Source: Geosiphon pyriformis
Taxonomy: Eukaryota; Glomeromycota; Glomeromycetes; Archaeosporales; Geosiphonaceae
Direction of reading: 5' to 3'
Assembly: GCA_016748015.1 (NCBI GenBank)
Contig: JAAOMT010000226.1
Location: forward strand, 912,604-976,603
Length of the DNA: 64,000 bases
The position numbers and the translations under genes were made by a program. Below are positions 1,001-63,833 of the stretch, in pieces (the stretch's first letter is position 1; each line of letters starts with the position of its first letter). The notes below the pieces were generated by a model. It saw only the letters and a list, made by a program, of their open reading frames with translations, had not been told where the DNA came from and searched no databases.

Positions 1001-1690
1001 ATTTGTTTATAAATTTTTTTTTATGTTTTTATAATTATAAGTAAAACAAAAAATAAAAAAAGGCAAAATTTTTTTTATTGCTGCTTAAATAATTAAAAAA
1101 ACAAAAAAACAAAATCTTTTTTTTTCAAACTTAAAACAAACAACTTTTTTGAATTATTAATAAAAATATTTTTTAATGTTTTTTAAAATAGTATTTTGTT
1201 TTAAAATCTGTCTTTTTTTTTATAAAAAATGAAACATTAACTTTTTTTGCTATTTTTACCAATTTTGTTATAATTACTGTAATTATAATTTCTATTATTA
1301 ATTTGTTTATAAATAATTATTTTTTTAATTTAAATAATATTATTAATAATATATTATTGAAGTTAGTTTTAATTAATATATAATTAAATTGCTTAATATT
1401 TTAAATTTTAGTTAATTATTATTAATTTTAAAGCAAAACAAGATATATTTTTATATATAATTTTTATCAATTAATTTATTAAGTTATTTAATTTCAAAAA
1501 TTAAATTAATTAAATAGAAATAAATTTTTTTTTTGTTTTTTAAAAATATTGCTAGTTTTATTAATATTTAAAAAAAAGTTATTAATTAATAAAAGTTTTA
1601 TTAATAGATAGTTTTTATTTAATATTTAATAAAATTATTAAAATTAAATTAATTTATGTTAAAACTATTATTACAAATAATATAACTTTT
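1000..1690 (-). repeat. AT-rich dispersed repeat, copy 2, inverted
   Basis: Read on the minus strand, this resembles the repeat at 1-1000 and 10,700-11,423, including the poly-T 'ttttttgttttt' block at about 1530 that mirrors 'aaaaacaaaaaa' in the other copies. It sits head-to-head with copy 1. Sequence just to its right (about 2490-2640) resembles about 38,335-38,440, beside another inverted copy, so the repeat seems to carry a common flank, as an LTR with adjoining internal sequence would. Confidence 0.35.
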
Positions 1691-3912: not shown

Positions 3913-4044
3913 TGTTTTTATTTTATTTTATTTTTATTTTTATTATTTAATGAGTGAAATCCAAACACTGCCTAGAATTATACATTATGTAAATAATCTA
4001 AACTAAGTGTAAATTATGCACTTTCTACACGTAACCAGCCATTC

Positions 4045-8790: not shown

Positions 8791-8949
8791 AATCATTAAA
8801 TCTTGTTATCAGACTTAGAACTGAAGCAGAAAGTTCTTTCAACATGTTTTCTAATTTTTTACTTTAGAAGAGGCAGAAGAGTCCAAATTTGCAGCAGTCT
8901 TACTACTTGTGGTCCCACCTAAACTCTCTCTCATCACTATATCACCCAC

Positions 8950-10546
8950 TTAATCCTGTGATGAAAGGGTCATTGGCAGCTGACATCCAGGGCTAGGCTG
9001 GAAAACTGCCAGCACGAATGAGTTCAACCTCTTAGCCAACTCACTAATCTGTCCCGCAAGACTGATAAGACTGCTTTCCAAAACTGCAAATTTTTTCTCA
9101 ATGTCAAATGTAACAGAAAGGGTAGGCTTCATCTCCAAAGAGGAGCCAGGATTAACTAAACCATTCTTTACAGGGAAGAGAAGGAACAAAAATTCACTAG
9201 CTATCTTTGCCCATAACATTCCATTAAAAGCAACAAAATGAGCAATAGGAGCTGAACACTTGGAATAGATAGCAGCCAATCTGCTTTTATCTACATCTAA
9301 AAGTGACATATGAGATAGTCTGCCAGAATACAAACTCTTACTCACAGAACAGTCCAATGATGTATGTCCTGTTTTCTCACACTTGGCACACTTAGAAAAA
9401 CCCAGACAAGACCACTGCAAATTGACCCCTTTCAACACAAGTGTGGTTCCCATAACAGCATTCAAAGACTCAGCCAAATCAAAACAAACAATGGCACACC
9501 TGGCCTGGGCATATGTAATAGGATGCTGGTTAATTACACACATTTTTCCACTCACAGAACCAATAAAATCCCAAATGTCATGAGCATTTGTTTCCACAAA
9601 AAAGAGTATAGAGCAGTGCCCTATGATTGTCTTTCACATCCCATAATTCTTTGTTTATATTAAACCTAGCAACATGCACCACATCTTTTCTGATTAAGAT
9701 AGACCATCTTGCTGCGACCAAATCAGCATGATCTATTTGGTCAAACTTAATTATTGTTTTCTGTTACAGCCTCACTAATTGCATTTTGATCAACTTAATT
9801 GACCCAAATTCAGACAGTGCAGCATGTACAGCCTTAACTGATGGCTCAACTGGAATTTCTTTTAACATTACAGCCTGATCTGAATGCCCAGTAGATTTTT
9901 TGAGATTGGCATTAACTAAGATTTTTGTATCAATAGCCTTTTTAGTGGCTTTTATTAAACCCAATTTAGAAGTAAATGTTGCTCGGATGATCCCAGAAAA
10001 TTTTGAAGAAGTAAAGGCCCTCTCAAAACCATTGATTCCTGAAAATAATTTCCTGATCATTGAAAGCTTATTCTAAGAAGACTTTCTAGTTACTTCATCC
10101 AGTCCAATGTTCAAAGCAAAAGATTTCCGAACAGAGACATTAACCAAATTCTTCAAAGTAGGGGGAAGTTCTAAAGAACTATCTAACAGAATATTATTCA
10201 TACCACCATAATCTGTGAAATCTATTTTCCCTAATAGCTTGCTTAATGCTTTCTTAGTCTTGATTCCTGGTCTTTTAGGCATCTGATTAGGATCCCCATT
10301 AGTAAGAACACTATTTTCTTCATAGTCAAAGCTGGTTTCTTCAACCAAACATTTTTCTTCCATGTCAATACTATCAGACTCAGTGGTATTGTCAATTTCA
10401 GACCCCCATGAATGACCACTTGGCTCCTTAGCAGATCTTCTTTTGTCTCCAACATTCTCTTCTAAAGCATCACCCTTCCTTTTCTTCCTTGGCAAAACAG
10501 GTTTAAAACCTCCACCAAAGCCAGAATCTTTAACAATCTTTTTCAT
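8950..10546 (-). pseudogene. LINE copy 1 ORF1 relic (nucleic-acid binding protein)
   Basis: Broken ORF1 of the LINE, which would coat the element RNA. The start at 10,546 gives a lysine/arginine-rich, acidic-patch N-terminus (MKKIVKDSGFGGGFKPVLPR). The frame stops near 10,073, resumes in the same frame to 9764 and crosses a W-to-stop position. It then needs one frameshift near 9600 to enter the next block (9597-8950). That block has an intact CX2CX4HX4C zinc knuckle (CAKCEKTGHTSLDC, 9349-9390 on the plus strand). A homologous N-terminal part is present at 20.4-21.1 kb, so copies 1 and 3 are one subfamily. The ORF1 of the LINE at 11.4 kb is related but clearly different. Confidence 0.8.
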
Positions 10547-10699
10547 AATAACAATACTGGGGCCAACTATGGCCTTGAAATCAAAAAAAAGTTAGGATTT
10601 ATCGTACTAAATTGTAAAAAACTTCTTTTAGAAAAAACTTTTGACTCTTTTTTGGGGATTTAGGATGAAAGAGAGAAAAAAGTTTTTTTTTAATATTGT

Positions 10700-11423
10700 T
10701 TTTAAAATTATATAAAGATTAAAAAATAGTTTTAATATAAATTAACTTAATTTTAAAAAATATTAAACAATAAAATTAATATTATTTATTCAAAAAATTT
10801 TTAATGATTATTAATTATTTTTTAAATATTATTAAAAACAATATTACCAAAAAACAAAAAAAAATTCTTAAGTTTTTATTTAATTATTTTAATTTTTGAA
10901 ATTAAATAACTTAATAGACTAATTAATTAAAATTATATATAAAAACATAACTTGTTTTGTTTATAAAACTGGTAAAAATTAATTAAAAATCAATATATTA
11001 AATAATACAGCCAAAGATTAATTTAAACCAAAATTAATTAATATGTTTCTATTACTGTTCAAAATAAAACTTTTTTCTATTTACAATCAATAAAACTAAA
11101 TATTATAATTAATATATATAATATAAAATTAATAAAAAAACTGGCTTTAAAATATTAAGGTTAAAATCAAAAACATTAAAAAATATTTTATTATTATTTC
11201 AAAAGAATTATAACTAAATATAATAAAGACTAAAAAAATTGTTTTGGTTTTTTTAGTTATTTAAATAACAATAAAAAAAATATTTTTATAAAAAATTATT
11301 AAATAGTTTTAATAATTGTAAATACTTTACTAATAAAAATATTATTAAATATTTTAAAAAATAAAAGGTTTACAATATTTTACTTTTTGTTTTAGTTGTA
11401 ATTATAAAAAAATAAATAAAAAA
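10700..11423 (+). repeat. AT-rich dispersed repeat, copy 3, between two LINE 5' ends
   Basis: This lies exactly between the 5' ends of the two divergent LINE copies. It aligns by eye with 1-1000 and, on the opposite strand, with 37,780-38,310. No open frame is present. Shared words include 'atagttttaatataaatta' and 'aaaacataacttgttt'. Either both LINEs inserted beside the same older repeat, or it provides sequence linked to their 5' ends. Confidence 0.5.
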
Positions 11424-11573
11424 AACTTCTTTTTCTCTTTTGTCCAAATTCTCCAAAGAGCAATTTTTGAAAAAAAAGTTTTTTTGTTTTTATCTTGCTT
11501 GCTTTATTACTCTCACCATTTCTCAAGCTAATAACCCATTTGTAGTGGACTTGGAAGCTGCTTTAAGTAGCAG

Positions 11574-13380
11574 TATGTCTAAGAAAAAGACTCTAAAGGG
11601 TGCTTTTCATGGTTCTGTTGGTAGAACTTTCTCTCAAAAAAAAAAGGTCTCTGTTAACAATATTAAACACTTTGGTAATAAAAGAAAAATCTTTCTGACT
11701 AAACCTGATATTAATAAGAGCATATATTTAGATATAAACAGTGAGTTCAGTAACAATAAGCTTGGTAATATCACAATGGGTTCAAATAGTGCTTTTTTTC
11801 TCAGTTCAGCTGTGACAACTTCTAAAGCTAAAAAGATCAATGTTGATTTAATTAGTAGTTCTCTTATTGGTACTATTGATTTTGGAATAGATAAGGATCT
11901 AAGTTACCTTTTTCCTTCTCTCAATATCTCTCTTGAAAAAAAGTAAATAAATTCTAAAGTGGTGAAAACTCAGGTTAAAGTGCCTATCAGGCAGTTTTTT
12001 GCTTTAGATATCAATCTCTTAGCTGTGGAAAAGAAATTAGTAACAGCAAAAACTTAGTTTGTTAAGAAAATTTTTTCAGTTGTTAATGGTTTTAGAAGAG
12101 CCACTACCCTTTTAAAATTTGAAGAGATTATCTGATCTACCTTCACATTAGAGAGCAGCATGGAAAAGGCTGTGACATTGGCCAAAAAAAATAGAATTGC
12201 CATAAACACTGATTTTAAGAAACAAAGAGTGCATTCAGATTGGGCCATAGTAATCAAAAAAATTCTCATGAATACACCAAAAAAGATAATTGTTATTACA
12301 ATCACCAAATTTGGAAAAATTAAATCAATCAAAATTCAACTAATCAGATTATGGCAAAAGACTGTGATAAAATTCACTGAATTAGATCAAGCTGATCTGT
12401 TGGCCTCAAGATAATCATTTTTGATTGAGAAAGATTCAGTATACATGACCAAAGCTGTGAGTAATTGGGAGATCTGGGTGTCTAGAGATTGGTACAGAGC
12501 ACTTTTGTTTACACTGCCAATGGAAACTATGGCTCATGATTTGGGTAATCTTTTGGAAGAGACTGGTGAGAAAACTTGCTTTATTAATCATTCACTGGAA
12601 ACTGGCAACAGAATCCACTGTGTTGTTGTTTGTTTTGAATCTAATATGACATTGGAATCTACATTTTATATGGAGCCAATTTTTAGTAGTATTAAACTTT
12701 TTTGGGCAAGGATAGATTTGGTTCAGTATAAGAAATGTGAAAGATTTGGTTATTCTGCTTTGAAATGTGATGCACCAGTTGCATCCACTTTTAAGTCTTT
12801 AAGAACATTTAAAAAGATTGTTTTTGATGAATGTCATTTTCAGTTAGCAAAGTTGTATAAGAAGAAAAGTGTTCTAATATTTTGCTCTGCTACCTTTGGT
12901 GGCAAATCTTGGGCCCAGGTGGTCTCATTTGTTGGTTCTCCTGATGGTTTTTACTTTATTTCTGGTTCTGGTTCCCCTTTTTCTAATGCTTTGGGTTTGA
13001 ATGGTGGTCTCTCTCTTGTTTCAGCTAATAATTCATCATTAGATGCTCATTTGGTCTCTTTGAAATAATTCTTAAAGCTATTGACTAATCAAGTTTTTAG
13101 TATTATGTGCAAGCTTGACAACATGGAATTGGTGTCACAGGTTCTATCTCTCTTCTCTAAAGTCTCGGCTATTTTAATTGCCACCAAAATGAATTTGGCT
13201 TCAAATATAATTGTAGACAGTTCTAAGTTGGTACTTTCACCTCTCTTTTTTGCTTTTTCTAACATTTTAACTTTGGGTTTAAGTAGTTTAAAAGTCTTGA
13301 TGACCAAAGTTGGCAGTTTAGAATCTAAGTTGATAACTCTTGAGGCTTCTGTTAGTTCAGTTTTGGCAAAGTTAAATTAG
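11574..13380 (+). pseudogene. LINE copy 2 ORF1 relic
   Basis: Likely start at ATG 11,574 (MSKKKTLKGAFHGSVGRTFS); the open frame extends upstream without another good start. The frame continues through several stops as blocks at 11,574-11,946, 12,160-12,414, 12,421-13,068 and 13,081-13,380. The zinc knuckle near 12,727-12,768 is damaged: it reads YKKCERFGYSALKC, with a cysteine and the histidine both replaced by tyrosine. Both fit single G-to-A or C-to-T changes. A hydrophobic, serine-rich C-terminus ends just before ORF2. The intact protein would bind the element RNA; this copy cannot be functional. Confidence 0.8.
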
Positions 13381-13382
13381 TT

Positions 13383-16300
13383 GTGTGTTGGTTCAGGTTT
13401 TTTGTTATCTTTTTCATCTTAATGAGTAGTTTGATCTGGAAAATAGCTATGTACAATATTTGGGATATCAATGTTTCTGCCAAGCAAAAAGATGTTGTTC
13501 ATTGGTATAAGGATATGAACAACTTGATTTTGATCATTACTGAGACTAAATTGAAAAATAAAGTCTGTCCATGGATTGCTGGCAAGTTTAAAGGTATCCA
13601 CATATTTACTTCTGGTTTAGATTCAGAATATCTGGGAGTTGGTGTTGTGATCATCATGAACTTTTTTTTGGCAAAACATGTGTACAAAGTTTCTGAGATG
13701 TCTGGTCAGCTTCTATCCATTAGATTGCTTTTTAAAAATAAACTTTCTGTGTCAGTCTTGGGGTTTTATGCTAGTGCTTTATCTGTGGTTTGGTTTTTAC
13801 AGACTAGTAAAATTAACTTTCTTATTGCGAAGACTGTTAATGAATCTTTTTTTATCATTCTTGGTGGTGACTTTAATGAAGATGATTTGCAAAAATGTAC
13901 TAGTTTTAAGAAGTGTATCAATTTGGCGCTGGTCAATTCTTTGGTGAGTAGTTTGATCATAAAGAGTCCTACATAGAGAAATTCAAGAGATGTAGAAAAA
14001 ACAATTGATTATGTATTGGTTTCATCAAATTTAATTAGTATGGTGGTGGATCATAATATCATAGACATTAGTAATCACTTTGACACTAATTATCAAGCTG
14101 TTTCTGTGTTAATGGGTCTGGGCAGTTTGCTGAACACTTAGTTGAACTCTTTTTGCAGACAAGCAAATAAAAATTGCTAGAAGTTTGATTTTAAGAGTGC
14201 TAACAATACAAAGTAAAGCAAGTTTAAAGATGCTATGGCAGCCAATGCTGTCATGCTCTCTGATAATTTTATCACTTCTGAGCAATTTTTGGACTTGGAT
14301 ACAATGTGAAATGCAGTTCACAAGATTATTATGCTATTAGCAAATGAAATATTCAGAAAAAAATGGTTTAAAAGTTTTGATGGTATTTTTACTAAGAACT
14401 CTTTTAGGTTTCATAAGCTAGAGCTTTTGGTCTCAAAAATTGCTAAGGCCTCTTATAAGGAGAATGTTGATAGGTTTGCTTTCCTTATGAAACACTGGAA
14501 TTCTTTGGACAATGTTAGAGCTTTGATTGTACAAAATATTGTGAACTTTGGTGCAGGTTTTAATTGTGTGCACTCAGCTTTTTTCAGTGTACAAAAGTCA
14601 TATCATGTCTCCAAGCTTGTTGAGTTTTTGCAAGCTGAGAAGTCAAAAATAAGATTGGCTATTAATAGACAGATAGAGAATTTTGCAGTTAATAAAGGTC
14701 ACATGATTAGAAGCGTGCTAGAGCATTCTTTTTAAAAGATGGTTTTGAACCATTTGGTAGTTGAAAATAAACTGATTCTGAAACTTGACCTAGTTAAAAC
14801 CAAGATTAATATTATTATGGAAAGCTGAACCAGAAAGCATAATGTGGTGAAAGATTTTTTTGATGATTGGTCTCATCAATATTAGTCTTTGGAGTATGTT
14901 TTTGATGATGCTTTTTCAAATATAATGTGCTCAGTTAGTCTTAATAAATTACTCGAAGTGGTTTTTAATCTGTCTGATAGCAAAGCTGCTGGTCTTTTTA
15001 AAGTGTTAAATGAGCTTTAGAAGCATTATGACAAATTGGTCTTGAATATGCTTTTAGTGCTTTTGAACTTCTATTTGTCTCATGAGTCAGTGTTTGGTGC
15101 TTGGAAGGAAGTTTGGGTCTCAATGATTTCAAAATTATATGAGTGGAAGAGAGTTCTTACAAACACCCAACCTATTGCTTTGATTGAAACCACCCACAAA
15201 ATATTTTCCAAGATTCTCTTGGACAGGACTTCTTTAGCATACAGCACTTTTGATGTCTTATGTGGAAACAATTTCTTAGTTCTAAAGGGTATAACAATTC
15301 AATCTCCCATTTTTGCCATTAATTCAGTTATTGAGGATGCTTTGAAAAAGAACCATGAACTTTGGTTGGTCTTACAAGACATGCAAAAGACTTATAATTC
15401 TGTTGAGTGGGAACATCTTAGAAACAGTTTGGTCAAAATAAAAATGTATAACAAGTTTATTAGATTTTTTGGTAATATTTACAATAGTTACATTAATAAG
15501 ATAATGACAGATTTTGGTTTGATAATTGAATATCAGATGCATAATGGCTTAGATCAGAAAGAAATGTTCTTACTGCTTCTTTGGTGCATATTTTATGATC
15601 CTCTTTTGTGTGAAGTCAAGAGACAGGAAAACATATGTAAATATAAGCTGAACTTTTATTATGTTGTCAAGACTGGTCATTTGGAATCTCAAGCTGAATT
15701 GACATCTTTTTTTGCTGTTGGCACTTTTGTTGATAACACAATCTAAATTGATAACAGCCAAGCTGCAATCCAACACATTTTCAATGTTGCTAGTGAATTT
15801 TTTTGGATTAATAACATTTCTATTAATAGTAACAAGACAATGGCAATTTCTATTAATTGCAAAGTTGTAAGTCCTAATTTGTCTATTAGTAGTTTACCTA
15901 TATCTATTGCCAAGAAAGAAGAGTCTCATCACTATCTAGGGATTTTTTTGTCAACTAAGAGTTTATCAAAGCCTAGTCTGGCTAAAGCAGATTTTGATGT
16001 CCAATTTTTTGCCAATCTGGTTCTAAGAAAAGCCATTTCTGATAAACAGTTTTTGTATCTGGTGTTAGCAGTTTTCTATTTCATTGTTAGCTACAAAATG
16101 CAGTTCAGTTTTGTTCCTATTAGTGTATATAATAAGTAAGATTCTTTGATTTATAAAGGCTTAAAGCTAAAGTTTGGTCTTTCTCTTGATTTTCCCAATA
16201 ATGCACTTTGTCATCTTTTATTGTATAGTTTGAAAACTTTCAAGCAAGTCTAGGCTGAAAGCAAAATTGCCTTCATTGTGTACTTTGTAAACTCTGTTGA

Positions 16301-18109
16301 GATTTTGGGTCAGTTGTTTTTACACAGGTTTCATGACTTGCAGATTCTGTCTTGGAGTTTACTTCACCCTTTGGTCTCTCCAGTTCACATTAAAGTCAGT
16401 GTTTCTAATAATTTTTTGACAGATGTGGTTTGTATTTTTCTTAAGTACAATCTGTTTCTAAGTGGCCATGTAAATAACTCTTTCTATTTTCATGGTAGAA
16501 CTTCTATATTATTTGTTCTTAACAAGACTAATTATTTTAAGTTTTTTCTGTCTCTTTAGTGATATGGTATTGCTTTTGTTGAACAGCTTTGTAATAAGAA
16601 TAGAGTCGTTTTTAATTGAAAAGCCTTCAAGCATTGAAAAAACTAGACCTATGTGGCCTTATTTCTGATTGGTTTAGGCTTTCTGTTGACTTTTTTGATG
16701 ATATAGCTTTTTTTTCTGCCTGTTTTTCTCCCATGAGTATCATTGAACCTTCAAATATTTTGGTATTTAGTAAGTTTGGATTGATTTGCAATCAGTTGCT
16801 GAGTCTTAAAACTGACAGTCTTTTTGTCAATATGGATGGATTTCTGAAGGGCTTGGGGAGTATTGACATGAGAGCTGGTACTGTGGTCTTTTTTGAGAAT
16901 ATAAGCTTGAGTTTAGGAATCAAGATTTTTGGTCTGATGTCTTTTACTTTGGCTGAATTGCAGGCCATTGCATTGGCTTTTGAGTGTGTTCTTTTTTTTA
17001 GCTTAGTTAGCATTTTTACAGACAGTCAGACTGTCTTGAATACGTGCAAATTAGAATTAGGTTTAATTTATCCAAATTTTCAGAATTGCTGTTGAGTCAA
17101 GTGTTAGCACATTGTGAACATTATTAGAAAAAAAAATTTAAGTGTTAGCTGACACAAGATAAAGAGTCATTTAGATGTTATGGGTAATAAACATGCTGAT
17201 ACACTTGCTGATACAGCTTCTCTTTCTCTCTGGTGTCTTTTTTTTTATGTGAAAGAATGTTGTATTTTAGCTAAAGAAAATGTCATTTCTAGTAATTTTA
17301 GATATTTTGTTTGTAGGGTCTTTCAGTCTATTTATCATGCATGCTAAAAAGTCAGTTCAGATTCTAGGGTTTTGGATAATAATTTGCATTCAGACATTAA
17401 TTGGTTTAGCTTATCATTGGTGTGGCATCCAAACTTGTATATGGCTTCTGGCTTTACTAATAAATTTATGGCTAGTGCTTACACATATTTTATGAAAACT
17501 TTATACTATCAGCTGCTGGTTGCTGTTTGAAAGTGCCTGTATGACAAATGTTACCTCAGTATACTGTGTTTGTATTGTGGTAAAGTAGAGGTTTCTAATC
17601 ATGTCTTTTCTTGCATAGTTAATAATTTTGTTTATTGTTGCTTGTTGAATGTTTATGTCACTGCTTGGAGTGTGCTTTCTGGTCTTTCTGTCTTCTCTTT
17701 AAGTGTTTCTTAATTACTGTCCTCTTGTATTTCAAATATTGCAGTTTGCACAGCTTTTTGCAAGGACTTTGTTTTTAAAAAGTGGCTTCAGAAAGCTATT
17801 TTTGTCTTCAAAGGTTCCAAAATAGCTGGTCAGAAGATTATAGAATTTGTGTGTAACTTATGTCTTGTCTTTAAAGATGAGATTTAGTTGGTCCATACTA
17901 AGTATTATGTCTATATAGAGAAGAGTAGGATGATACCATGTGATGATTCGGCTTTGGTTTTAGTTTTTAGACTGTTTACAGTGCTTTCTGCAGGTGTAGT
18001 TAAATTGCTGAGTATTGCTGAGACATTTGGTATTGGTTTTGAACTTTATAGGTCTTGTTTGTTTTTTTCAGGTGTTAAAGACTCAGTTTTGGTACATATA
18101 GGTACTTAG
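13383..18109 (+). pseudogene. LINE copy 2 ORF2 relic (endonuclease, reverse transcriptase, RNase H)
   Basis: ORF2 polyprotein relic. Endonuclease: an intact ILGGDFNED motif near 13,858-13,884 and ITETKL near 13,535, but the usual 'TDH' reads TNY. Reverse transcriptase: motif A reads LQDMQKTYNSV (about 15,370) and the catalytic box reads FVDNTI then TAA (15,724-15,747), the same aspartate loss as in copy 1. RNase H: MDGF, AELQ and TDSQ triads remain (16,616-17,095), followed by a GNKHADTLADTA block at about 17,180. A C-terminal CLYCGKVEVSNHVFSC zinc-binding motif lies near 17,570. At least a dozen stops occur, mostly at W, Q or R codons, plus one frameshift in an A run near 16,640. Confidence 0.85.
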
Positions 18110-21999: not shown

Positions 22000-24228
22000 T
22001 TTGGTGCTTCCTGTGAGGTATAATCTTACAGAGAACCAGCACCAACAAACACCATCCAAAAGTGGCAGAATCAGAAAACATAGAAGCAAACCATTTAAGA
22101 TTCACGAAATCCCTATTTCAACACTATTGTCAACACTTGAGATTAAATCATAATCATATATTCACCGAATCAGCCTTTAATTTCTATGTCAACAAAAAGA
22201 TTTCTTTTTTGTTAGGAACACCAGTGAATACTGAATCAGCCAGAGAAACTTTTTACAGAAAATTAATTCAAAATACCAACCTACCAACAAATCACAATTT
22301 TGCCTCCATCATTACTGAGATCAACAAAGAAATTGAACATCACACTCAACAAAGATATCCAATTACTTATGCCAGTAAAGGCAAAGGAAAACTACAAACA
22401 CCAGCGGTAACACCCAAAAAGATACAACTACTCACTTGGAAGAAAACAAGAGTTGAATCACCAACTGCTCCATCCTATCACTACACACTAGGAAGCGCCA
22501 TTAATATAACATCAGCAAGCGCATCCACATCAAATGTGATATCAACATTCGGACAATTCTCATTCCAAAGTAAACAAAGAAAAACAGATCTACTAGAACC
22601 ATACAGTGAATATTTTGAAGGATTTAAGTCACAATTACCAACACCATCAGGAATTCAATCACCACCACCTCAACCATACTTTAGAACCACTACCCCATAG
22701 GAACTATCTGAAAAAAAAGAGGAAAAAGAATCAGAAAATCAAGAATTTACTTACCAAAACCCGATCCTTGAAAACCTGGAATTTGGAACTCCAAACATTC
22801 AAACTTAGCAAGAAAATCCAGAAATTGAAACTTCAAATATTCAAGCATTACAAAATTAAAACCCTGAAGTAATTAATCAATACTTACCTCCAGTTATTGT
22901 CATCGATCAACCACCAGTTGAACCAATTGGTCAGCTCATCCAAATACTGAACCAACAAACTCAACAACCACCCCCAGTACCACCTCAACAACAACAACAA
23001 CAACTTCCATCACAGCAACAACAACAAATGGCATACACACCAATCACAAAGCTCGACAAATTCACCAATGAAGAGGATGATACACAAGTTTGGCTAAACG
23101 ATGTAGAAAAAACCATCACAGCCAATGGATGGAATGACACCAGAATCATGCAAGCCATACTTTATTTTCTCAAGGATACAGCAGATTCATGGTATCAAAG
23201 CCTGGTCGACAAACTCCAAGATTTCAATGCCTTCAAATTAGAATTTTTGAGATACTTTAGCAATAACAACAGCATTAACAGATTAGTCAACACTTTTACT
23301 ATAATTAAACAAGGAGAAACTAAAGCAGTTACCACATATCTGGAATGCTTCTATAGAAATCTGCAACAAATCCAAGCAATTAATGCTAATTATTTCACAG
23401 TACCACAAATTCTCAATCAATTCATCCATGGCCTGTACAGTAGCATCCTGCAATACATATGCTCATTACATCCAGCCACTCTCCAGGACACAGTCACACA
23501 TGCCAGAGATTTCGAATCTGCCAAATTAGAAGCCAATCATGCTCATGCTGTGAATCTAGTGATGAATGGATTATCTGAATTGGATTCTAAATTGAAATGA
23601 TTCAGTGATTCAATTAATCAGAAGTTAGAGGGATACTTAGCTGACAATCATGCAATTTATTAACCATCACAATGACACAATAATCCAGGAAATGCAAATT
23701 GTTTCCAAAATCAGTTGTGTTCATTATTATTATCAGCAGCACCTAATCAGCCGTGGTAGCCAGAAATGCATGTTTGCCACAACTGTGGTAAACAAGGACA
23801 CATAAGAGCAGACTGCAGATTTTATAGCAACAATTCACAATCAGAAAATCAATATTGAAATCTCAATCACAGATTTCAAACTCTAAATCATTACCCAAAT
23901 CAAGATCAAACTACTTACCTGCCAACAACACAGCCACCAATCTATCAACCACCAGTATATTAACCTCAAATTTATCAATCACAGCCACCAATAATCTATC
24001 AGCCACAATCCCAAATAATTTATCAACCCCAATCAATTCAGACACCACCCCAAAATTCAGTTAATATGACATCAGGCCATCCCAGACCTAGAATCACACA
24101 AAACTGGAGATCAGTGATGGTTGTCTATCAACTGATCCCCAGTTCTTCCAACTTACTATCAGGATTGCATTCTCGGAATTTAGGTACCAGTGCCACCCAA
24201 AACCCGAATTCCCAGAACTATTTAAGTC
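22000..24228 (+). mobile_element. Internal region of the LTR retrotransposon, truncated after gag
   Basis: Internal sequence starting with the primer-binding-like TTTGGTGCTTCC directly after the LTR. It contains only gag: it stops abruptly at about 24,228 inside a conserved 'NYLSLL' peptide, where hAT terminal sequence begins. Protease, reverse transcriptase, integrase and the 3' LTR are all missing from the window. Confidence 0.7.
22062..24228 (+). pseudogene. LTR retrotransposon gag with zinc knuckle (degenerate)
   Basis: A single reading frame runs about 2.1 kb with several stops (near 22,698, 22,807, 22,857, 23,598 and 23,660) but no frameshift. The presumed start reads GTG where an ATG is expected. 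Order: an N-terminal region (AESENIEANHLRF), a proline/glutamine-rich linker (near 22,900-23,030), and the gag capsid-like block 23,028-23,597 (FTNEEDDTQVWL, TIIKQGETKAVTTYLECF, QILNQFIHGL). A CX2CX4HX4C knuckle (CHNCGKQGHIRADC, 23,774-23,815) and a Pro/Gln/Tyr-rich tail follow. Gag would assemble particles and bind RNA. It matches a family I remember as very common in Rhizophagus. Confidence 0.8.
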
Positions 24229-33513: not shown

Positions 33514-35587
33514 TCATATCTGGGGCGTGCTCGTTTGGGAAGCGGATTTTGGATTGGACTGATCAAAAGAGGTGTTAGCTTGGGGTGATGACGATGAAGA
33601 TTTGATAACATTAACTAAGTCTTCTTTACGAGAGGGATTGTCTAAATCCATTACATCAGAATTTGAATCCAAATTCATTGGTGTGGTAGATGATACTTCC
33701 CGTGGATGGTTCTCAAAAAATTTGGCAGATAAGGTATGAGAGTATTTTCCTCGTCTAGGCCGATAATCACTGGTGTATTTCGCGCGGTACATATCAAGAG
33801 CTTTTTGAAGCAGCAATTTTTTCTCCCCAAGTTTTGTAGAATTCAAATAAGCCTTTTGATCGAATAAAAAAACATAATAAAAAATCTGCCAAAAAATGAT
33901 TTGATTGGGAGTTCCAGAGTAGGTTTAATCTTACCAATTTCCAACCTAGCTCATTGCACCAATTTTCAAGGTCCCAATTAGTCCCTTTATAATTGTTTCG
34001 ATCGCAAAAAGCTCGAGGATAAACGCAATTCTTTTTCCTAAATTCATCAGGTATATCTGTCATGTTAACAGATTCAATGTCGGCTCGAACTCGAACTCTG
34101 GTCGAAACACCTTTAACAACTGAATCAATTGATAATTGCTTTGCTGCTCCTCGCTGCCTTTTGACAGAAAGATTGAGATCAGCATTTCCATCAAAAGCAT
34201 CGCCATCACGGGCAGCCCTTTTACGTAATGTTCCATTTAATATTTTTTCATTTCTGACAACTCGTCTGGACCTCATATTCGGATCGCGATTTCGATAACT
34301 GTCAACTGCTCGCTGAAGTAATCCCCTTTTTCCGGAAATATCAGCGGAATTGAGCCATGCTAGTTTCCAGCCTAATATATTACATTCGTTCTCATATGCC
34401 CATCGATTTCCTTGATATTTATCTTCTGAACAATTTGCACGGGGATATAGGCAATTATCGTTTTTGAATTCTTCACTTATATCATTAAGATTAACGTGGT
34501 CCACATCAATGCGTATTCGATATTCTTTATTGTTGCCCTTCACGGAATAAGTAAATACCACAAATTGCACACCCTCGCGCGTCTCGATAATAGGATCAGT
34601 GGCGGGTAATGCATGATTTGGGGAAGGATTAGAAATCAGAGGTTCGGGTTGTTTAAGAGCACCCAGTGATTGTTGTTGATTTGGAGATGGAGAAGGGATT
34701 TGATGCTTAGTCAACTGATCTTGTAATTTTGGTGATTTTTGTTGCTTTGGCTGTAAAGATTGTGTTAATATTGGTAATAAATTTTGAGGATGTTCTTGTT
34801 GTTGTTGAATGTCAGGATGTTCATGATGTTCAGGAAGTTTTTCATGTTGATCTTGATTTTGTGTTGTTTCAACATTAATATTGGAAGTTGATGAGTTGTC
34901 GTTGTTCACATTTGTTTGTGCAGATGACGGCGATGATGATGATGATGACGATGATGATGATGTTATGGAATTAATAGTTTTTTTTTTAATTAGCTGTGGG
35001 TTGCTAATAGGTTTTGTTATCATTGTGGAGACATTTGGTGATGGGGAAACTGTTCTGTGTGGGAGCAAGTTATTACTACCAAAAAGGACACCAGTATTAT
35101 TGGTAATATTAGTATTATTACTATTGATAATCTTTTTCTGTTCTTTAGCCTTTTTCTTTTTCGCTCTTTGTATTGTCCTTTCGAGTGATAAAAATTGTTC
35201 AATTGAAATTGTCGTAAGAAGTTCTTCGGTGTGTTGGTCTGGTCTAATGAGAGACGCTAGTGTGATATGAGGAATAGGAGGTTGAACAGTTTGGGGATTC
35301 GAGGTAGTTGCGACGTTTTCAGGTGGATAGCGTAAAACATTTTGAGCACTTGATAAAGAGGAAGTTTGAGAAGCTGGTTGAATTTGAGTTTGTGGAATGT
35401 TTGAGGACTTATCACTTAAATTGACCCAAGTTAATGCCTCAGTAGGAGACTTGGTTTTTTCGGTGCTCGTAGGAGTTACACTAGAGAGAGGATCAGCCTT
35501 AGGTGGAGAGGAAAGTGAGGTTGTTAGTCTTTCCGTTTGTAAGTTTGATCCGTTCTTTCGAGTTTCGCGTTGGGAAGGTTGTTGCAT
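33514..35587 (-). CDS. Two-exon protein with two DUF8032-like domains
   Basis: Model: exon 1 35,587-33,935, an 82-nt intron (GTAAGA...AAAG), exon 2 33,852-33,514; about 663 residues. The N-terminal third is a low-complexity Ser/Thr/Pro/Gln region with a 10-serine run (34,930-34,965). Two related domains follow: residues about 337-440 (DVDHVNLNDISEEFKNDNC, CNILGWKLAWLNS, LLQRAVDSYRNR) and about 480-600 (DIESVNMTDIPDEFRKKNC, CNELGWKL). The second is completed only by splicing, since exon 2 supplies AYLNSTKLGEKKLLLQKALD. They resemble the fungal family I recall as DUF8032; its function is unknown to me. Basic stretches (RSRRVVRNEK, VKRQRG) suggest a nuclear protein, but that is inference. Intron phase is 0. 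CpG is common here, unlike in the flanking repeats. Confidence 0.8.
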
Positions 35588-36240
35588 TTTTCTTTTTGTT
35601 CAACTATCGGTTTATCGCGACAGGGGGTCTATATCCCTAACAAACTTCGCGAGAATTCACCAAATTATATTGTAACCCCTGAGTGTTTCTAAGTTTGGTT
35701 TTTTGACGAGGGTGTAGTATTTACCCAGTTGTTTGTTGGACATTGAATCAACTCCCAGGAGTTCTCCCACCCCATGGCATGCATAAGGAATTGCATGTCA
35801 TCCTGATCAATTTTAATTGGTCCTACGGTCAATTCCTAAAAAATCTGACAAGACTTCCAATTTTGGTTTTGAAGTAATGATAAATTTAATCATTCCCTCT
35901 TATGAACGGCGATGCCAACAGGAGGCGATGATACCTAAATCACTTCAAAAAGGAGTTTTTTTGCCGGTGCAGAAAAAATGCGAGTAAATAGGATGCAGCC
36001 TGTGAAAATCTTTTTTCGCAGAAACATCTTTGTAATAATAAATAAAGAAATTCAATAAAAACAGGTAAAAGTCGAGTTCTGAAATAATAGCTAACAAATA
36101 AACTTTTTTAATCAAACTTGATAAATTTTTTCGACTCCTTATTATGATCAGGAATAATCTTTTTGAAAAAATGATAATTATGAGTGACAACAACAACAAT
36201 AATAATAATAATAATTTAAAATTACAAGTGTTCGAAAATC
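35588..36240. other. Upstream region of the DUF8032-like gene
   Basis: Moderate-GC sequence 5' of the minus-strand gene, which probably contains its promoter and 5' leader. No TATA box could be assigned with confidence. The short open frame at 35,945-36,199 is low-complexity and not supported. Confidence 0.35.
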
Positions 36241-56115: not shown

Positions 56116-57468
56116 ATGTCTGCTTTTGAAACCCCTAAATTTAATCTTGTCACTGTCAACATTTCGAATGACGACAGCAAAATTCCTCGAATGAAGGCTC
56201 AGACCCATCAGAAAGCTGATTGTGGCTTGGGTCCAGAAATCCGGTTTAGCGAAACCATGAAGCAAGCGAACTCCGTCTTGACCGAAAATTTTTTACCTCT
56301 CGCTTACTTTGGTTTAGTTTCTGCGACCCCTATCGAAGGTGGCGATTATTGCCACGAAATTAAATGCGAGTTTGGGGAAGCTTGGGCAAGAGCTCCTATT
56401 AAGTCTGCTTTTAAATGGAAGAAATTTGATTCTAAAGCTCAATCGCATAATCATAAGTGTGACCAGGAGCTGGTTCAGAATCCTAGAACAATAGCAAAAA
56501 ATGGCGCAAAAAGTGTCAGCGAAATTGTTCAATTTTTCGAAAAATTGGCGAATGACGTATCTAAGCAGAATATAGAGAAACTCCATCAACAGAAAACCGA
56601 TATTGTGATTCTCCTAGAATCGGAAATTAAAGTAGAAATAAAACCCCACATTTCTACAATCAATGAAGACGATCCCGTAGCCAATATTGTCGACAAAGTC
56701 TTTTATGTTCCTCAAGAATTTCAACTTGAAGCTGGTATAGACTTTGTCACCAACAATCATAAACAAATTAAATTAGAAAATGCTGAATGTAACGAAAATG
56801 AAGATACGATGCTTGCTGAAAAGTGCTCAGTAAATGAGATTGACAACCTTGACGAGAATGTACTCACCAGAGCCCAATTAATCGAGAAAATTACTGAGCT
56901 TGAATCTGAGAATATTCACCTCGAGGCTAAACATAAAGTCATTCAAAAGAAAATGAATTCAAAAAAGAGCCTCAAAAATTTCAAACAAAAAGGACTTTCC
57001 AAATCGCTCAAAAAAAAAATTGATGATTTTAATATCGAAGAGTGAGTAAAAATTTGTTTGACTATTTTGTCTCATTTAAGCGTTTAAATTAATGAAACTA
57101 TTCGTCGGTGGAACATTAGGACTGAAGGATGGGCTAATATTGAAGCTTTCAACAAAGCAATCAATAAAACAAATCCTAAAAATATTGGTATTCTTTCTGA
57201 TATTGATTTTTATGTGGAAGAGTAAGTTATATTATTATGCCACCTTTTTAAAAATCTTGTACTAACTATAACTCCACTTTTTTCTAGACTTGAAGGATGG
57301 GACAAAATTGATGCTTTTCATAAGACGTTAAACAAAATTACCAATACCGATTCGTTTATCGCCTCAGCAAAAATAGAAAACAAGAATACTTATAATTTCA
57401 GGCCACTTTTGACCTTTTCTGCTATTTGCTGTTGCTCTTTGTTTTTGGCCTATCAATATGTTTTTTAA
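56116..57468 (+). CDS. Unrecognised family, paralog 1: predicted tail-anchored protein
   Basis: I do not recognise this family. Model: exon 1 56,116-57,041, exon 2 57,120-57,221, exon 3 57,288-57,468; introns GTGAGT...TTAG and GTAAGT...CTAG; 402 residues. The N-terminal 85 residues are polar. A conserved motif follows: AWARAPIKSAFKWKKF (89-104). The middle is acidic. A charged helical segment RAQLIEKITELESENIHLEA begins at about 252, then a Lys-rich stretch. Exon 2 encodes TEGWANIEAFNKAINKT...DIDFYVEE and exon 3 repeats the theme as LEGWDKIDAFHKTLNK. The last 20 residues are hydrophobic (LLTFSAICCCSLFLAYQYVF), so the protein probably inserts into a membrane by its C-terminus with the rest in the cytosol. 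There is no signal peptide. The exon 1 frame alone would end one codon past the donor, so the tail depends on splicing. Confidence 0.8.
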
Positions 57469-59105
57469 TTGTGAAAGGTTTGAAGCTTGAAGCTTTCTTT
57501 ACACATTTAAATTTGAGGTTATGCAAATTTTTTCATTCTCAAGTTTTTTACCCATTTTTTAAACCATGACAAAGTTTTCATTTAAATCTATTCAACTTTC
57601 CTCCCAAAATTTACACTATGATTCAAATTTTCCACAAACTTTCTAAGATTTAGTTTAACTCTTTGAATTGGAATAATACAATTAACATTCAAACTTCCAA
57701 GTTATTGTAGATATTGTAAATAAAAACATGTTTCAAAATCTCTTAAATTATGTCTCATATTTTCAATTTTGAGAATTTTAAAACAATAAATTGTTGATTC
57801 ATGATATTAGCAAGATTTATATTATAAATTCAACTTAATGGAATATAAAAATTAAATATTTTGGAAAATCTATCAGTTCTAAAAATTAGCAAAAAATCTA
57901 GACTTATATGTAAAAATCATTTGTTTTCATATATAAGCAATTTTTTTAATTTTAATTTTTACCACTAATTGCAATTTAGTTTTAATTATTATTATTATTA
58001 TTATTAAGAATCACAACATTTAAGATTTTTAGCATTATAAAAATCTTATCTTTTTACATAATATTAAACTGTTAACTAAAAATATTCGACTTTTGGTAAC
58101 CAATTTAATATATAACAAATTATTACTACCAATTAATTAATAAAAAAGTATTAAATCCAATATTTGTATTTAAATTAAAAATAATTATTTATAACCAATA
58201 TAATAATATAAATAAAATTTAAATAACTCATTTATTTGGTTTGATTGAATGAGAAATTACTTGTAAAAAAAAAATACATTTTATCTTAATTCTTTGTAAT
58301 TATACATTATTAAAACACAGATTTTATTAAATAAATGATATATTAAATCAATATTTCAACAATCAATTGGTTTACATTAAAAAAATTACTATGAAAATTA
58401 AAAATTAAAATTAAAACTTAATCTTGAAATTTACAAGGTTTTTTATTAATTTAACATTTTTTAATGAACTTATTATAATATAAAAATTTATTATTTTGGC
58501 ATAAATAACTTGCTAATTCCAGTGGTACAATATAAATTGAACTTTTAAATTAAGAACAAATCTTTTCAAAAGCCATAAAGACAATCTAGCAGCAATTATT
58601 ATGATCAATTAATAGTAATATTAATGATATAAACATTAGATAATATGAAAAACCCTTTTATTGTTCGGAATGTCAAATTATTTTACTGCCTTGTGATCAA
58701 TCTTGAATAAATCATAATATACAAAATAAAAAGTCTGTATTATTAAAATAACATTTTTGCTATACGCTTTCAATAATTAGTCATTTTGTAACGAAAATTT
58801 TATTTATCTTGGGGTTCCACAAAATTTACCAACATAATTTTTTAAGTAATGAAAACCTTTTGTATAAAACCTGGACTATTGTTGAAAATTTACTAAAGTG
58901 TTTTGATATGTACATTATCTACAAGCAAGAAGCGTAAGGAAAAGAAGACTTAGATTTCAATCTTCAATCTTCAATCTTAAATGGAAATTTTGGGAATTGA
59001 GTTTTGGTGAAAGCTTTTAAAGATCATCAGAGAGTATACCGGCAAAGTTAGAAAAAGAAGGCGCTTAATAAAACATATAAGTCTACAGAAAATTTTGTAG
59101 AATTC
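57469..59105. other. AT-rich intergenic region between convergent paralogs 1 and 2
   Basis: It contains the 3' ends of both genes. No further coding signal. A short direct repeat of 'caatctt' lies near 58,960-58,980. Confidence 0.5.
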
Positions 59106-60347
59106 TTAAGCCCAAAAAAAGGAATAAATTAAAACTGCAGATATAGCCAATACATTTCCGATGACATTGGACTCTATGGTTGATGTAATTGCTTCAGAAG
59201 GAAAAATTAAGGGACCAGTGAAAATTTTATCTACAGACTCATGTAAAGTGTTCATTCTTTCATAGTTGTTATTTCTAATTTGAGGTCAATATCAGAAATC
59301 AATATTGAATTAACCATGTTTTTTGAAGGGTTGAAAAAACAATCGATAGCTTAGCTTACTCTTCGGAAAAGCATTCAACTGGTGCAAGATACTTGATGTT
59401 TTTATCTGTCTTTCTAACGATATTTTTGTGAACCTCTTGGACCTCAGACGAGACTTTTCTTCTATAAAGAAAAATTTGCATTATCAGTTGAGTTTCTTAA
59501 ATGAATCATAGGTCTTTTAATTTACTTACTCTTGAATAATTTCGTCCATACTTTGCTTTTTTGTTTTCTTTTTTGCTTTTTTCATAGTAGATTTTGATTC
59601 AACTTTTTTCTGCAAAGCCTTAATCCTGGTTTCGAGATAAATTTTTTCACATTCAAGTTCCATGATTCTCTGGAGTAATTGCTTTCTGCTGGGAACCCCA
59701 TAAATTGAAAGATAATTCTCATTGGTTTCAAAGAGGCCTTGTTTCTTTGGGACAGTTAAGGTGATTAATTCGTTGTTTTTAGTATTCGTGTCGAGATTTA
59801 CAGGGATACCGGATGGCTGTTGAAGTATCTCCTCAAATTTCTGTTCATGAAGCTCCACATTGTCAGATTTTTTGATCATGAAATTCTCACTTGAGGTATT
59901 AACGTGAATACATTTAGATTCTTGAACCTTGGCGATACCCTTAAGCTGACGAAATTGAGCTTCAGGGGCAAATCCTTTCCATTTTAACGCAATTTTAAGA
60001 GGAGCTCTCGCCCAAGCGTCTTTTGGCTGATTCTTAATTTCTTGGCGACGTTGATGGCTGAAGGTGGGAGTTGCAACAGCAAGACCAAGGTAAAAATTAA
60101 ATGTTGGTAAAGCTTTATGTTGATTTTGCTTTGTTGGTAAAGCTTTATGTTGATTTTGCTTTTTTGGTAAAGCTTTATGTTGATTTTGCTTTATCGGCAC
60201 GATATTCTCGAGAGTGCAGACCTTTTCTTCAAATCTTAAATTAGCTGTCTTTTGATTTTTAAGAGTTCTAGGAATTTTACTTGCAGATCTAAGATTGGTC
60301 TGGGAAGAGATGGTAGAATTAACATTGATTCTTCCTTGCGAAGACAT
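59106..60347 (-). CDS. Unrecognised family, paralog 2: predicted tail-anchored protein
   Basis: Model on the minus strand: exon 1 60,347-59,530, exon 2 59,461-59,360 (102 nt), exon 3 59,274-59,106; introns begin GTAAGT and GTAAGC; 362 residues. Residues 53-82 are three tandem copies of KQNQHKALPT-like decapeptides. Then comes the family motif AWARAPLKIALKWKGFAPEA (111-130), a low-conservation middle, and the charged helix RKQLLQRIMELECEKIYLET. Exon 2 keeps length and phase but has lost the GW...AINKT theme found in the other two genes. The C-terminus is hydrophobic (IGNVLAISAVLIYSFFWA), so tail anchoring is again likely. Convergent with paralog 1, divergent from paralog 3. Confidence 0.8.
60103..60192 (-). 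repeat. Three tandem 30-bp units inside paralog 2
   Basis: Three near-identical 30-bp repeats encode three KQNQHKALPx decapeptides. They differ by only a few bases, implying recent expansion. Neither of the other paralogs has them. Confidence 0.9.
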
Positions 60348-60462
60348 TTTTAAGTACTTTAATAAGGTTTCAGTTGATAGTTGTTGAATTAAGAGTTTTC
60401 TTTGCTCTTTCTTAGAATCCTATCAATTCAGATCTTGCTTTTTTTGCAGTCAGGAAGTTGCC

Positions 60463-60470
60463 TTTTTATA
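60463..60470 (-). promoter_or_regulatory. TATA box of paralog 2
   Basis: On the minus strand GTATAAAAAGG lies about 120 bp before the ATG at 60,347, with CTTCC about 10 bp further on. Confidence 0.55.
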
Positions 60471-62456
60471 CACATCACTTTCTTAATCTTCAAGAATAAA
60501 TGCAACAGATTGGTTATCAGCAAAAACTTTAGCTTTGTTACAATTCTTTGAATTTGAATAACATTATTACCATATCACGAGTATTTGTGATTGTTATTGT
60601 GATAATGCTAGTGTATTGTGTGATTTATTCCAATGTAATCATTTAAATAGACAGTAGAAGTGAATGCTTTTTTTGGAATAATGAATCAAGTTTGTTTTTT
60701 GTAACTCTAATTTTGGTACGTGTTCTTAATGCTTTTGATCAGGTATATAAAATGATAAAAATTAAGGTTTGTATTCAAAAGAATTTTTAAGCTTGAAAAA
60801 CAATACATGATCTCAGATTTCAAGACAAATAAATAATACATGATGGTATTGAATATTAAGAAAAAAAGAGTATAATGAAATAATTGATCGATTGATTTAA
60901 TTATATAGGTAGCTTGGTAAATACTTTTTTAGTTACTATAATAGAAGTTATAAAATTTCAAAATAGAATTGTTTTTCAAAAAAAGGAATATTAAAATTTT
61001 AAATGTTTTCCTTCACAAAATTTGAAAGACAATTTTTCTAATGAGAAATAAAAATTGGTTCATTAATTGTAAAAAAATTTATTCACCAAAAAAAATAATT
61101 TTAATCTAATTTTGGAAACACCAAAATTAAATAATAATGAATTATATTAATAAATTATAAATAAAAATCGAAAATACTTGGCTAGAAAACAGAAAAAAAA
61201 AAGGAAATTTTCTATATAGTAAAATTTTATATGTAAAATAAAGGAAATGGATTTAAAAATCTGTACAATCTTGTGCAAATCAAATTTTAAGATTCAACAC
61301 TTATAAGTTGGTTTCAATCCTGTTTATCCTGTTTATAAGATATTATGGATTGACAAGTCTTAAAATATATTTTATTTATATTTAATACCTCTACAAATTT
61401 AATGATAAAAAAAATTTTTATTCTCCAAAGCAAAATTTCTAGAAACATGATTGTTTTATTTAATATAAAGTCACTTGAAATTTTTTGAAAATGATTATAA
61501 AGCTCTGTTGTTTTGACCATTCATTGTAATTAGTTCAAAATTAGGGTAAACGTTTATTTTTTAAAATTTATTTACCATTCATATTTTAAATGGTGGCAAG
61601 TTTATTGAATAAATAGTCTATGAGAAATTCGTAAAGAAACAATTAAGAGGGAAAAGTGAATTTCTAAGAAAATAGGTACAATTCGAAATTGTTGACAATC
61701 TTGATACTAATGGTTTCTCAAAAAAGTATTTTTTATTCAAGTTTCTAAAAGTAGAAATGATATTCTTTTTCCAGTTTTCAAAAGTTTGTTACTTTGAACA
61801 AAACTCAAAAGTGTAATTCAATAAAACATTTCCTAATGTGATCAAAAATCTTAAGCTCCTTTAGATTTTTGAAAAAAAAAAATGAATCATGGGATTTTAA
61901 TCATTCTAAGATATTCTTGACGCGTTATGTCATTATTTGGTTTTTTCTATTTTGAGGGATGAATGCATAGTATTATTGATCAAGTTGGAATTTTTTTTCT
62001 ATTTCATCAATGGAAGAAGAATTTTCTACGCATTTTGTTAACATATTTTTGCAATATAGATGAGTCAAATAGAAAGAAAATTCAATGCAAAATTTAATTG
62101 CATATCATTGTAAACTAATTCGAAGTTTAACATTTTGACAACAATAAGATAATATCCCTACATTAAACAATACATTAAAAGATACATGAAAAATTAATAC
62201 ATCACGCGTTCACACTCCTTTGAACCTAGAATGGACATACCAAAACAATACATTATAATTTTTCGATATGATTGAAAGTGTGATAGGAATCTTTGGAAAT
62301 TTACATTCTAATGCAACTGACTACATTTAAAAAAAAAATTTGAAAAACCTTAAAGTTTCTGGTAGCCAGCTGAACAAAAACTGTATTGTTTTTCATGTAT
62401 AGATGCACGAAGGGATTTGACACCTAGAAATAGCATCAAAATACTTGACTAAAATG
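60471..62456. other. Intergenic region between divergent paralogs 2 and 3
   Basis: AT-rich, with no supported coding signal; short open frames (for example 61,314-61,520) have no motifs. Upstream regulatory sequence of both genes should lie here. Confidence 0.45.
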
Positions 62457-62463
62457 TATAAAA
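62457..62463 (+). promoter_or_regulatory. TATA box of paralog 3
   Basis: TATAAAA about 165 bp before the ATG at 62,625, followed by TGATTTGCTCC. The spacing to the pyrimidine block is like that of paralogs 1 and 2. Confidence 0.55.
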
Positions 62464-62624
62464 TGATTTGCTCCTCGGGGCATTTCAAAAAAATCAGAAA
62501 TCCAAAACACAAAGTTAATACAAGTGTATTTGAGATACTAATCACCCAGTTCACAAGCATACTACTGTTAAAGAACCAATTAAAAACTTTTTTTTTTCCA
62601 AAAAAATTTTTAAATTTCAACAAG

Positions 62625-63833
62625 ATGTCTCTTGCAGCAATAAATACTCCTATTCAAAGCTCCTTTAATTCCCAGAAATCACCTTCTAGTACAAAAATCT
62701 TAAAGCCCAAACCAAGTAAGGTTCACAAAAAACGTGATTCAGGTTTCAGTGAAGAAATCACTCTAGGCTTGAATCCTGAAGCTCAAACTTTTAGTGGTAA
62801 TTTGAAAGAGATCTCCTACTCTTCAAATCTCACCTTGACTGCAATTGGCAATGGTACTACTTTTAAAAATCGTCAAGAACTTCTCAATCGTGCTAAAACT
62901 CCATGGGAAATTGCTCCTCTTCATATCGCGTTGAAATGGAAAGGTTTTTCACCAGAAGCACAATTCCGTAAACTTAAACCAACCAAAAAGGATTTCGCTA
63001 CTCCCTTAAAAAAATGGTTGAAGCCTAAAGATTGCAAATCAGTGGCCGTTTTACCCAAAGAATCCAAACCTAATCATATTATTGAAGCAAAAGAAACCAT
63101 AAAAGTTGATGTTATTCAAACTCCAATCCTTAATTTCATCTTCCAAGAGGTTGCGCCCAAAGATCTTGAGGTTCAAGATGAAATTAATCTGCGAAATTTA
63201 TATATTGAAAAAATAGTTCAAATTAATTGTGAAAACCTTTACCTTCGAACAAAGAAAAGAGTCTTGAAAACCAAGGCGTTTACAAAATCCAATTCTCGAA
63301 AGAAATCGGTCTCTAGTAATGAAAAATTGATTAGAGGAAAACCTGATTTTGAACATGAAGAGTAAGTTTTAATTCAATTAACAATTTTTTTTAAATTATG
63401 ACTATAAAATGAACCAATTATTATTTTTTTTAATTAGACGAGAAGGATGGAAAAAGATCAAGGCCTTTAAGGATGCAATTAACAAAACTACAGCCTCAAC
63501 TTCAAGAATCCTCGATGATATCGATTTTTATTTAGAAGAGTAAGCAATTAGTTTGATTAGTCAAACTTGTACTTTTTTTGAAATTGAAACCAAATATGCT
63601 AACTTTTTTTAAAACTTGAAACTAGAACACGAGGTTGGGACAAAATTGATGAATTTTATGCAAATTCATCCAAAATTTTTCAGGAATCCTTTGAATATCA
63701 ACCTGAACCTACTGAGAAATCTCCGAAAGTCTCCAAAACTTCAATTTTGAAAATAATTGCCTATTCCTCTTTTTTGATAGGTTCTTATTTTTTTGTTCAA
63801 GCACTTCAACCAGCCATTTTCTCTCTTTCTTAG
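62625..63833 (+). CDS. Unrecognised family, paralog 3: predicted tail-anchored protein
   Basis: Model: exon 1 62,625-63,361, exon 2 63,438-63,539 (102 nt), exon 3 63,626-63,833; introns GTAAGT...TTAG and GTAAGC...CTAG; 348 residues. The start at 62,625 (MSLAAINTPIQ) is preferred over an in-frame upstream extension to 62,445. The extension overlaps the TATA box, and the other paralogs also begin with 'MS'. Family motif: PWEIAPLHIALKWKGFSPEA (93-112). A helical, charged segment (YIEKIVQINCENLYLRTKKR) follows. Exon 2 encodes REGWKKIKAFKDAINKT...ILDDIDFYLEE and exon 3 TRGWDKIDEFYANSSKIF. The C-terminus is hydrophobic (ILKIIAYSSFLIGSYFFVQA and ten more residues), a likely tail anchor. Function unknown. 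Confidence 0.8.

Follow-up and report, generated by a model that had tools for sequence, protein, structure and literature searches.

Three neighbouring paralogs of Geosiphon pyriformis encoding predicted tail-anchored coiled-coil proteins with a repeated amphipathic helix module

Mff, the mitochondrial fission factor, is a tail-anchored adaptor in which a mostly disordered cytosolic part bearing short conserved motifs is followed by a coiled coil and then, at the C terminus, by a single membrane segment. SNARE proteins likewise join a coiled-coil helix to a C-terminal anchor, and in members of the Bcl-2 family a helix bearing GW lies a short distance ahead of a hydrophobic C-terminal segment. 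Features of each of these systems recur in the predicted products of three clustered genes in a 64,000-nucleotide stretch of Geosiphon pyriformis DNA (hereafter the window; unless a contig or locus is named, positions are counted within it). The three proteins have the same overall layout as Mff, but they give no Pfam match at the cut-off and carry two helix modules between coil and anchor, one of them on an apparently duplicated exon; as an analogy, the resemblance to Mff is one of architecture only and not of membership. They depart from SNARE proteins in that the helix modules lie between their coil, of about four heptads, and the anchor. Neither a SNARE model nor a Bcl-2 model is among the Pfam matches listed up to E 10 for the three proteins, although HMMER filters can drop weak matches, and there is no Bcl-2 chain among the PDB profile matches.

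The genes lie next to one another on alternating strands (+, -, +) and comprise 402, 362 and 348 codons: paralog 1 (p1) at 56116-57468 (+), paralog 2 (p2) at 60347-59106 (-), and paralog 3 (p3) at 62625-63833 (+). All three have a common three-exon layout, as follows.

56116..57041, + strand, p1 exon 1
57120..57221, + strand, p1 exon 2, 102 nt, with a GW helix module
57288..57468, + strand, p1 exon 3 including the stop
59530..60347, - strand, p2 exon 1
59360..59461, - strand, p2 exon 2, 102 nt, with a module lacking the W
59106..59274, - strand, p2 exon 3 including the stop
62625..63361, + strand, p3 exon 1
63438..63539, + strand, p3 exon 2, 102 nt, with a GW helix module
63626..63833, + strand, p3 exon 3 including the stop

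After splicing, the frames are intact across all exons. The six introns are all GT-AG and 66-86 nt long, each splits a codon after its second base, and exon 2 has the same length of 102 nt in every paralog, which leaves the splice models of the three predicted genes well supported. In coordinates and lengths they agree with a first-pass annotation of this DNA, which had described three genes of 348-402 residues with one three-exon layout.

Local alignment scores between the proteins (242 for p1-p2, 249 for p1-p3, and 222 for p2-p3) are far above the maxima from 1000 shuffles per pair (89, 79, and 80, respectively), and we therefore regard the three genes, on the strength of these alignments, as a real paralog family. 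Nei-Gojobori estimates for the three pairs, which are rough given few sequences and many gaps, were 1.64, 2.24, and 2.07 for dS and 0.70, 0.73, and 0.84 for dN, with dN/dS at ∼0.33-0.43. Synonymous sites are near saturation, so the paralogs are old, and on average they are under loose purifying selection. The first-pass annotation had called the family fast-evolving, which is half right: dN is 0.70-0.84, the copies are old, and their dN/dS is on average that of loose purifying selection.

We searched the 124.7-Mb assembly (406 contigs) in six frames with each spliced protein. The exons of p1-p3 were recovered, and every other match had an E of at least 0.077; no fourth copy was found in this assembly, which has gaps, so its absence is not proven. 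A profile search of the rest of the window and 10 kb beyond it likewise gave no further copy, the next matches having E values of at least 1.2. A DNA pattern for AP...A.KWK had three matches assembly-wide, one in each gene, and its reversed control had none. The corresponding pattern for EGW..I..F had eight matches, three of them in paralog exons and one elsewhere on the same contig (C318:893882; L004). We rejected the latter as a fourth paralog, taking it as chance, since no open frame of at least 40 codons reads the motif. The other four matches are at L003, L008, L009, and L010, the last three with an in-frame stop inside the matched letters. Two further candidates from the six-frame searches were also set aside: matches to p1 residues 137-184 on C126, C314, and C327 (E 0.69-1.4) all belong to a single Ty3-like retroelement, whose copies there share 82-85% identity, and the p2 match on C398 (E 0.077) contains three stops. 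A p1 match on C282 had E 2.57.

The family had also been reported as matching no named family, with profile hits in a well-known family as the finding that would overturn this. No Pfam model reached its cut-off for the whole p1-p3 proteins or for pieces of them, and the PDB profile matches were weak (best E 0.027) and mostly on the coiled coil; that claim holds in both collections. The best Pfam match, DUF7653 on p1, fell below its cut-off (E 0.00067; 20.2 bits versus 27) and was absent in p2 and p3, and we did not accept it. In viral contigs 246 stretches fitted a peptide pattern of the family, and in bacterial and archaeal contigs 367 did so; none was confirmed in either collection, both of which are without fungi by design. 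Among the matches listed from open-licence papers, no title concerns this three-paralog family. By sequence comparison, then, the three paralogs are an orphan family with respect to Pfam, PDB profiles, and viral and prokaryotic contigs.

Exon 1 encodes two recognizable elements, a tryptophan-containing block (W-block) and a coiled-coil-like helix.

56383..56457, + strand, W-block of p1, by DNA pattern
59940..60014, - strand, W-block of p2, by DNA pattern
62904..62978, + strand, W-block of p3, by DNA pattern; helices predicted at low confidence
56869..56955, + strand, coiled-coil-like helix of p1, by heptad spacing
59601..59687, - strand, coiled-coil-like helix of p2, by heptad spacing
63192..63278, + strand, coiled-coil-like helix of p3, by heptad spacing and AlphaFold2 model

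Of all parts of exon 1, the W-block is best preserved. We found it in all three proteins, together with a charged helix and a hydrophobic C terminus, as the first-pass annotation had proposed for a shared W..AP...A.[FL]KWK.F block and these two companions. An AlphaFold2 model of p3 exon 1, a weak one built from three sequences (mean pLDDT 47.7, pTM 0.20), places three short helices within residues 80-113 (block means 41-61) and one long helix spanning 183-226, in which residues 191-210 have block means of 79-81. The model suggests that the short W-block is probably helical. In the long helix, hydrophobic residues are spaced 4-3 through about four heptads, some core positions being polar, and a basic stretch comes after it. 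In p2, exon 1 also holds a 30-nt unit repeated three times in frame and in tandem (60102-60191; 94-97% alike), which encodes a 10-residue repeat.

A coiled coil followed by a basic stretch would suit a nuclear-envelope or cytoskeleton linker, whose coil and basic residues would bind filaments or microtubules and whose tail would sit in the nuclear envelope. p1 does have a subthreshold match to the Pfam model Cep57_MT_bd (E 0.12), but its 13.3 bits are far below the cut-off of 31.3, it is absent in p2 and p3, and such matches are frequent for coiled coils; we consider a linker of this kind unlikely.

Downstream of the coil, each paralog carries two copies of a second element, the first encoded by exon 2 and the other by the beginning of exon 3. 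The exon 3 copies are located as follows.

57295..57339, + strand, second helix module of p1 (exon 3), by hydrophobic spacing
59223..59267, - strand, second helix module of p2 (exon 3), with Y replacing W, by hydrophobic spacing
63633..63677, + strand, second helix module of p3 (exon 3), by hydrophobic spacing

The GW..I..F signature reported earlier as occurring twice in p1 and p3 is indeed there, and both copies were found in each; it is the conspicuous portion of an amphipathic helix module, and p2 keeps the hydrophobic spacing of that module without the W. We compared the six modules (two per paralog) gap-free over 18 offsets at equal distance from the splice sites. At offsets 0, 3, 6, 10, and 13, one of V/I/L/M/F/W/Y is present in 5/6, 6/6, 6/6, 5/6, and 3/6 modules, and at every other offset in at most two of the six. 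The summed helical moment of the six was reached by none of 5000 shuffles, a statistic in which modules of shared ancestry do not count as independent, and that of a single module was reached by 129-610 of 5000 and is thus not striking alone. In both p2 modules the W is replaced, by S and by Y, and the hydrophobic spacing is kept. As far as the six sequences tell, because the spacing persists in p2 despite these replacements, the conserved entity is an amphipathic helix, in which W is one option at the first position and not required. An AlphaFold2 model of p1 exon 3, again weak and from three sequences (mean pLDDT 64.9, pTM 0.26), gives a helix at 2-24 over the GW module and another at 37-58 over the hydrophobic end.

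The core of an Atg8-interacting motif is [WFY]xx[LIV], and in p1 and in p3 there are two W-x-x-I cores apiece, after glutamates and near the predicted anchor. The proteins could on this basis be selective-autophagy receptors, in which the GWxxI modules and the acidic residues before them would serve as such motifs and the tail anchor would mark an organelle for degradation. The core is kept in four of the six modules, but p2 has lost it in both (S-x-x-V and Y-x-x-M) while keeping the helix spacing, so that it is not a family-wide feature. Furthermore, the spacing runs beyond the core to offsets 6 and 10 in a helix-like manner, and the AlphaFold2 model shows the module of exon 3 as a helix, whereas Atg8-interacting motifs bind as extended strands. 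We judge an autophagy receptor improbable.

A repeat search showed that, besides the recurring GW part, in p1 and p3 the exon 1 end resembles that of exon 2. Among in-frame exon 1 controls, 0 of 292 reach this likeness for p1, against 4 of 229 for p3 and 21 of 256 for p2, and the likeness between the starts of exons 2 and 3 is reached by 0 of 293, 1 of 230, and 86 of 257 controls, respectively; the signature of an exon duplication is thus clear in p1, weaker in p3, and undetectable in p2. Exon 2 resembles a fusion of the exon 3 start with the exon 1 end. It may have arisen by tandem duplication of a stretch that began in the last part of exon 1, spanned the intron and reached into the first part of the GW exon, with the phase kept; the order of events is inferred. 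Since exon 2 is present in all three genes at the same length and phase, the duplication is probably older than their separation.

One frame of p2 intron 2 (59275-59359) reads ILISDIDLKLE and resembles the exon 2 end of p1 and p3. We rejected it as an exon 2 relic: its best p value was 0.012 among 18 comparisons, which is not significant after correction, and we take it as a hint only. Together with the loss of both W residues and the 30-nt in-frame repeat in p2, this readable intron might indicate that p2, or the cluster as a whole, is decaying and no longer functional. Against this, the three reading frames are uninterrupted over their three exons, dN/dS is ∼0.33-0.43, and the intron likeness did not survive correction; decay is in our view quite unlikely.

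Each protein ends in, or very close to, a hydrophobic segment.

57406..57462, + strand, C-terminal hydrophobic segment of p1, by hydropathy
59109..59165, - strand, C-terminal hydrophobic segment of p2, by hydropathy
63741..63797, + strand, C-terminal hydrophobic segment of p3, by hydropathy

The most hydrophobic 19-residue window of p1, p2, and p3 lies 1, 0, and 11 residues from the C terminus, in line with the lone C-terminal segment proposed earlier. Its mean is 1.69, 1.95, and 1.57, a moderate hydrophobicity, against 1.03, 0.95, and 0.95 for the next-best window elsewhere. An equally hydrophobic window within 12 residues of the end arose in 12, 2, and 16 of 3000 shuffles, and one anywhere in the protein in 326, 54, and 261 of 2000. 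Because shuffles reach such hydrophobicity somewhere in the protein, the shared C-terminal place is a stronger argument than the strength of the segment. Unweighted insertion sums (2.00, 1.31, and 3.51) are all above zero and count against an anchor. No hydrophobic stretch was seen at the N terminus, where the best 19-residue mean in the first 40 residues is 0.00, -0.24, and -0.16. Judged by hydropathy alone, all three proteins have a single segment at or near the C terminus and no N-terminal signal peptide, as tail-anchored proteins do.

Orphan, diverged, and clustered genes in a presumed mycorrhizal fungus (an assumption of the first-pass annotation) could also encode proteins delivered to the plant host in symbiosis without a classical signal peptide. 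There is no hydrophobic N-terminal stretch in them, and a hydrophobic C-terminal segment suits retention in the fungal cell; we regard delivery to the host as very unlikely.

Tail-anchored proteins of the yeast ER are described in PMC5450235 as having a segment hydropathy above 1.75 and a low tail charge, and mammalian peroxisomal ones as having a strongly basic tail (mean +6.03). Measured against these figures (PMC5450235), p2 alone exceeds the yeast ER boundary of 1.75, p1 and p3 lying below it, and none of the three proteins has a basic residue after the segment as the peroxisomal ones do. The residues that follow the segment are F in p1, none in p2, and QALQPAIFSLS in p3, none of them charged. 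These uncharged tails speak against a peroxisomal target, and the ER and the mitochondrial outer membrane are both candidate destinations of the predicted anchor.

Taken from N to C terminus, the predicted order is a disordered region, the W-block, a variable linker, the coiled coil of about four heptads, the basic stretch, the helix module of exon 2, that of the exon 3 start, a linker, and the single hydrophobic segment. We put the probability of this anatomy with a tail anchor at about 0.8; the remainder of the protein would face the cytosol. The C-terminal segment would anchor the protein in an internal membrane, the coiled coil would pair two copies, the juxtamembrane helices may pack against one another or against the membrane, and a soluble partner would be recruited by the distal W-block. 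Such an order, running from distal motif through linker, coiled coil, and helix modules to tail anchor, suggests a membrane adaptor or tether, a role to which we give a probability of about 0.4. More tentatively still, the proteins may represent an undescribed tail-anchored family in which the W-block is a small binding domain of a new helical kind, the juxtamembrane stalk lengthened through tandem duplication of an amphipathic helix module carried on one exon, and three old, functionally diverged copies have been kept side by side. If this is true, the cluster would add a family of organelle-surface proteins that has no known profile and, in this genome, is covered by no Pfam model; it would also be a compact case of an exon created by cross-intron duplication, with its phase kept and a repeated helix built. 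Orphan families are common in such fungi, which limits the surprise.

Several other features were observed around the cluster. The AT-richness of the DNA and a neighbouring kinase of the tyrosine-kinase-like type make the assignment to Glomeromycotina plausible, kinases of this type being linked to these fungi. The first 4000 nt of the window (1-4000) are extremely AT-rich (G+C 0.10) and contain many short imperfect tandem repeats. They are followed by two retroelement-like sets of open frames on opposite strands and less than 1 kb apart (4063-10591, -; 11416-17095, +), which are reverse-transcriptase-like and endonuclease-like by eye; two pieces of them were scanned without a Pfam match at E 0.01. 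A 601-codon open frame at 33797-35599 (-) contains, by eye, a repeated stretch ending CxYPRAxC...LGWKL, and it had no Pfam match at E 0.01. A retrotransposon gag is encoded at 22860-23597 (Pfam Retrotrans_gag, E 5e-10). Downstream of the cluster, at L001 3055-3984 (-), lies a protein kinase of the tyrosine-kinase-like type (Pfam PK_Tyr_Ser-Thr, E 8.3e-35).
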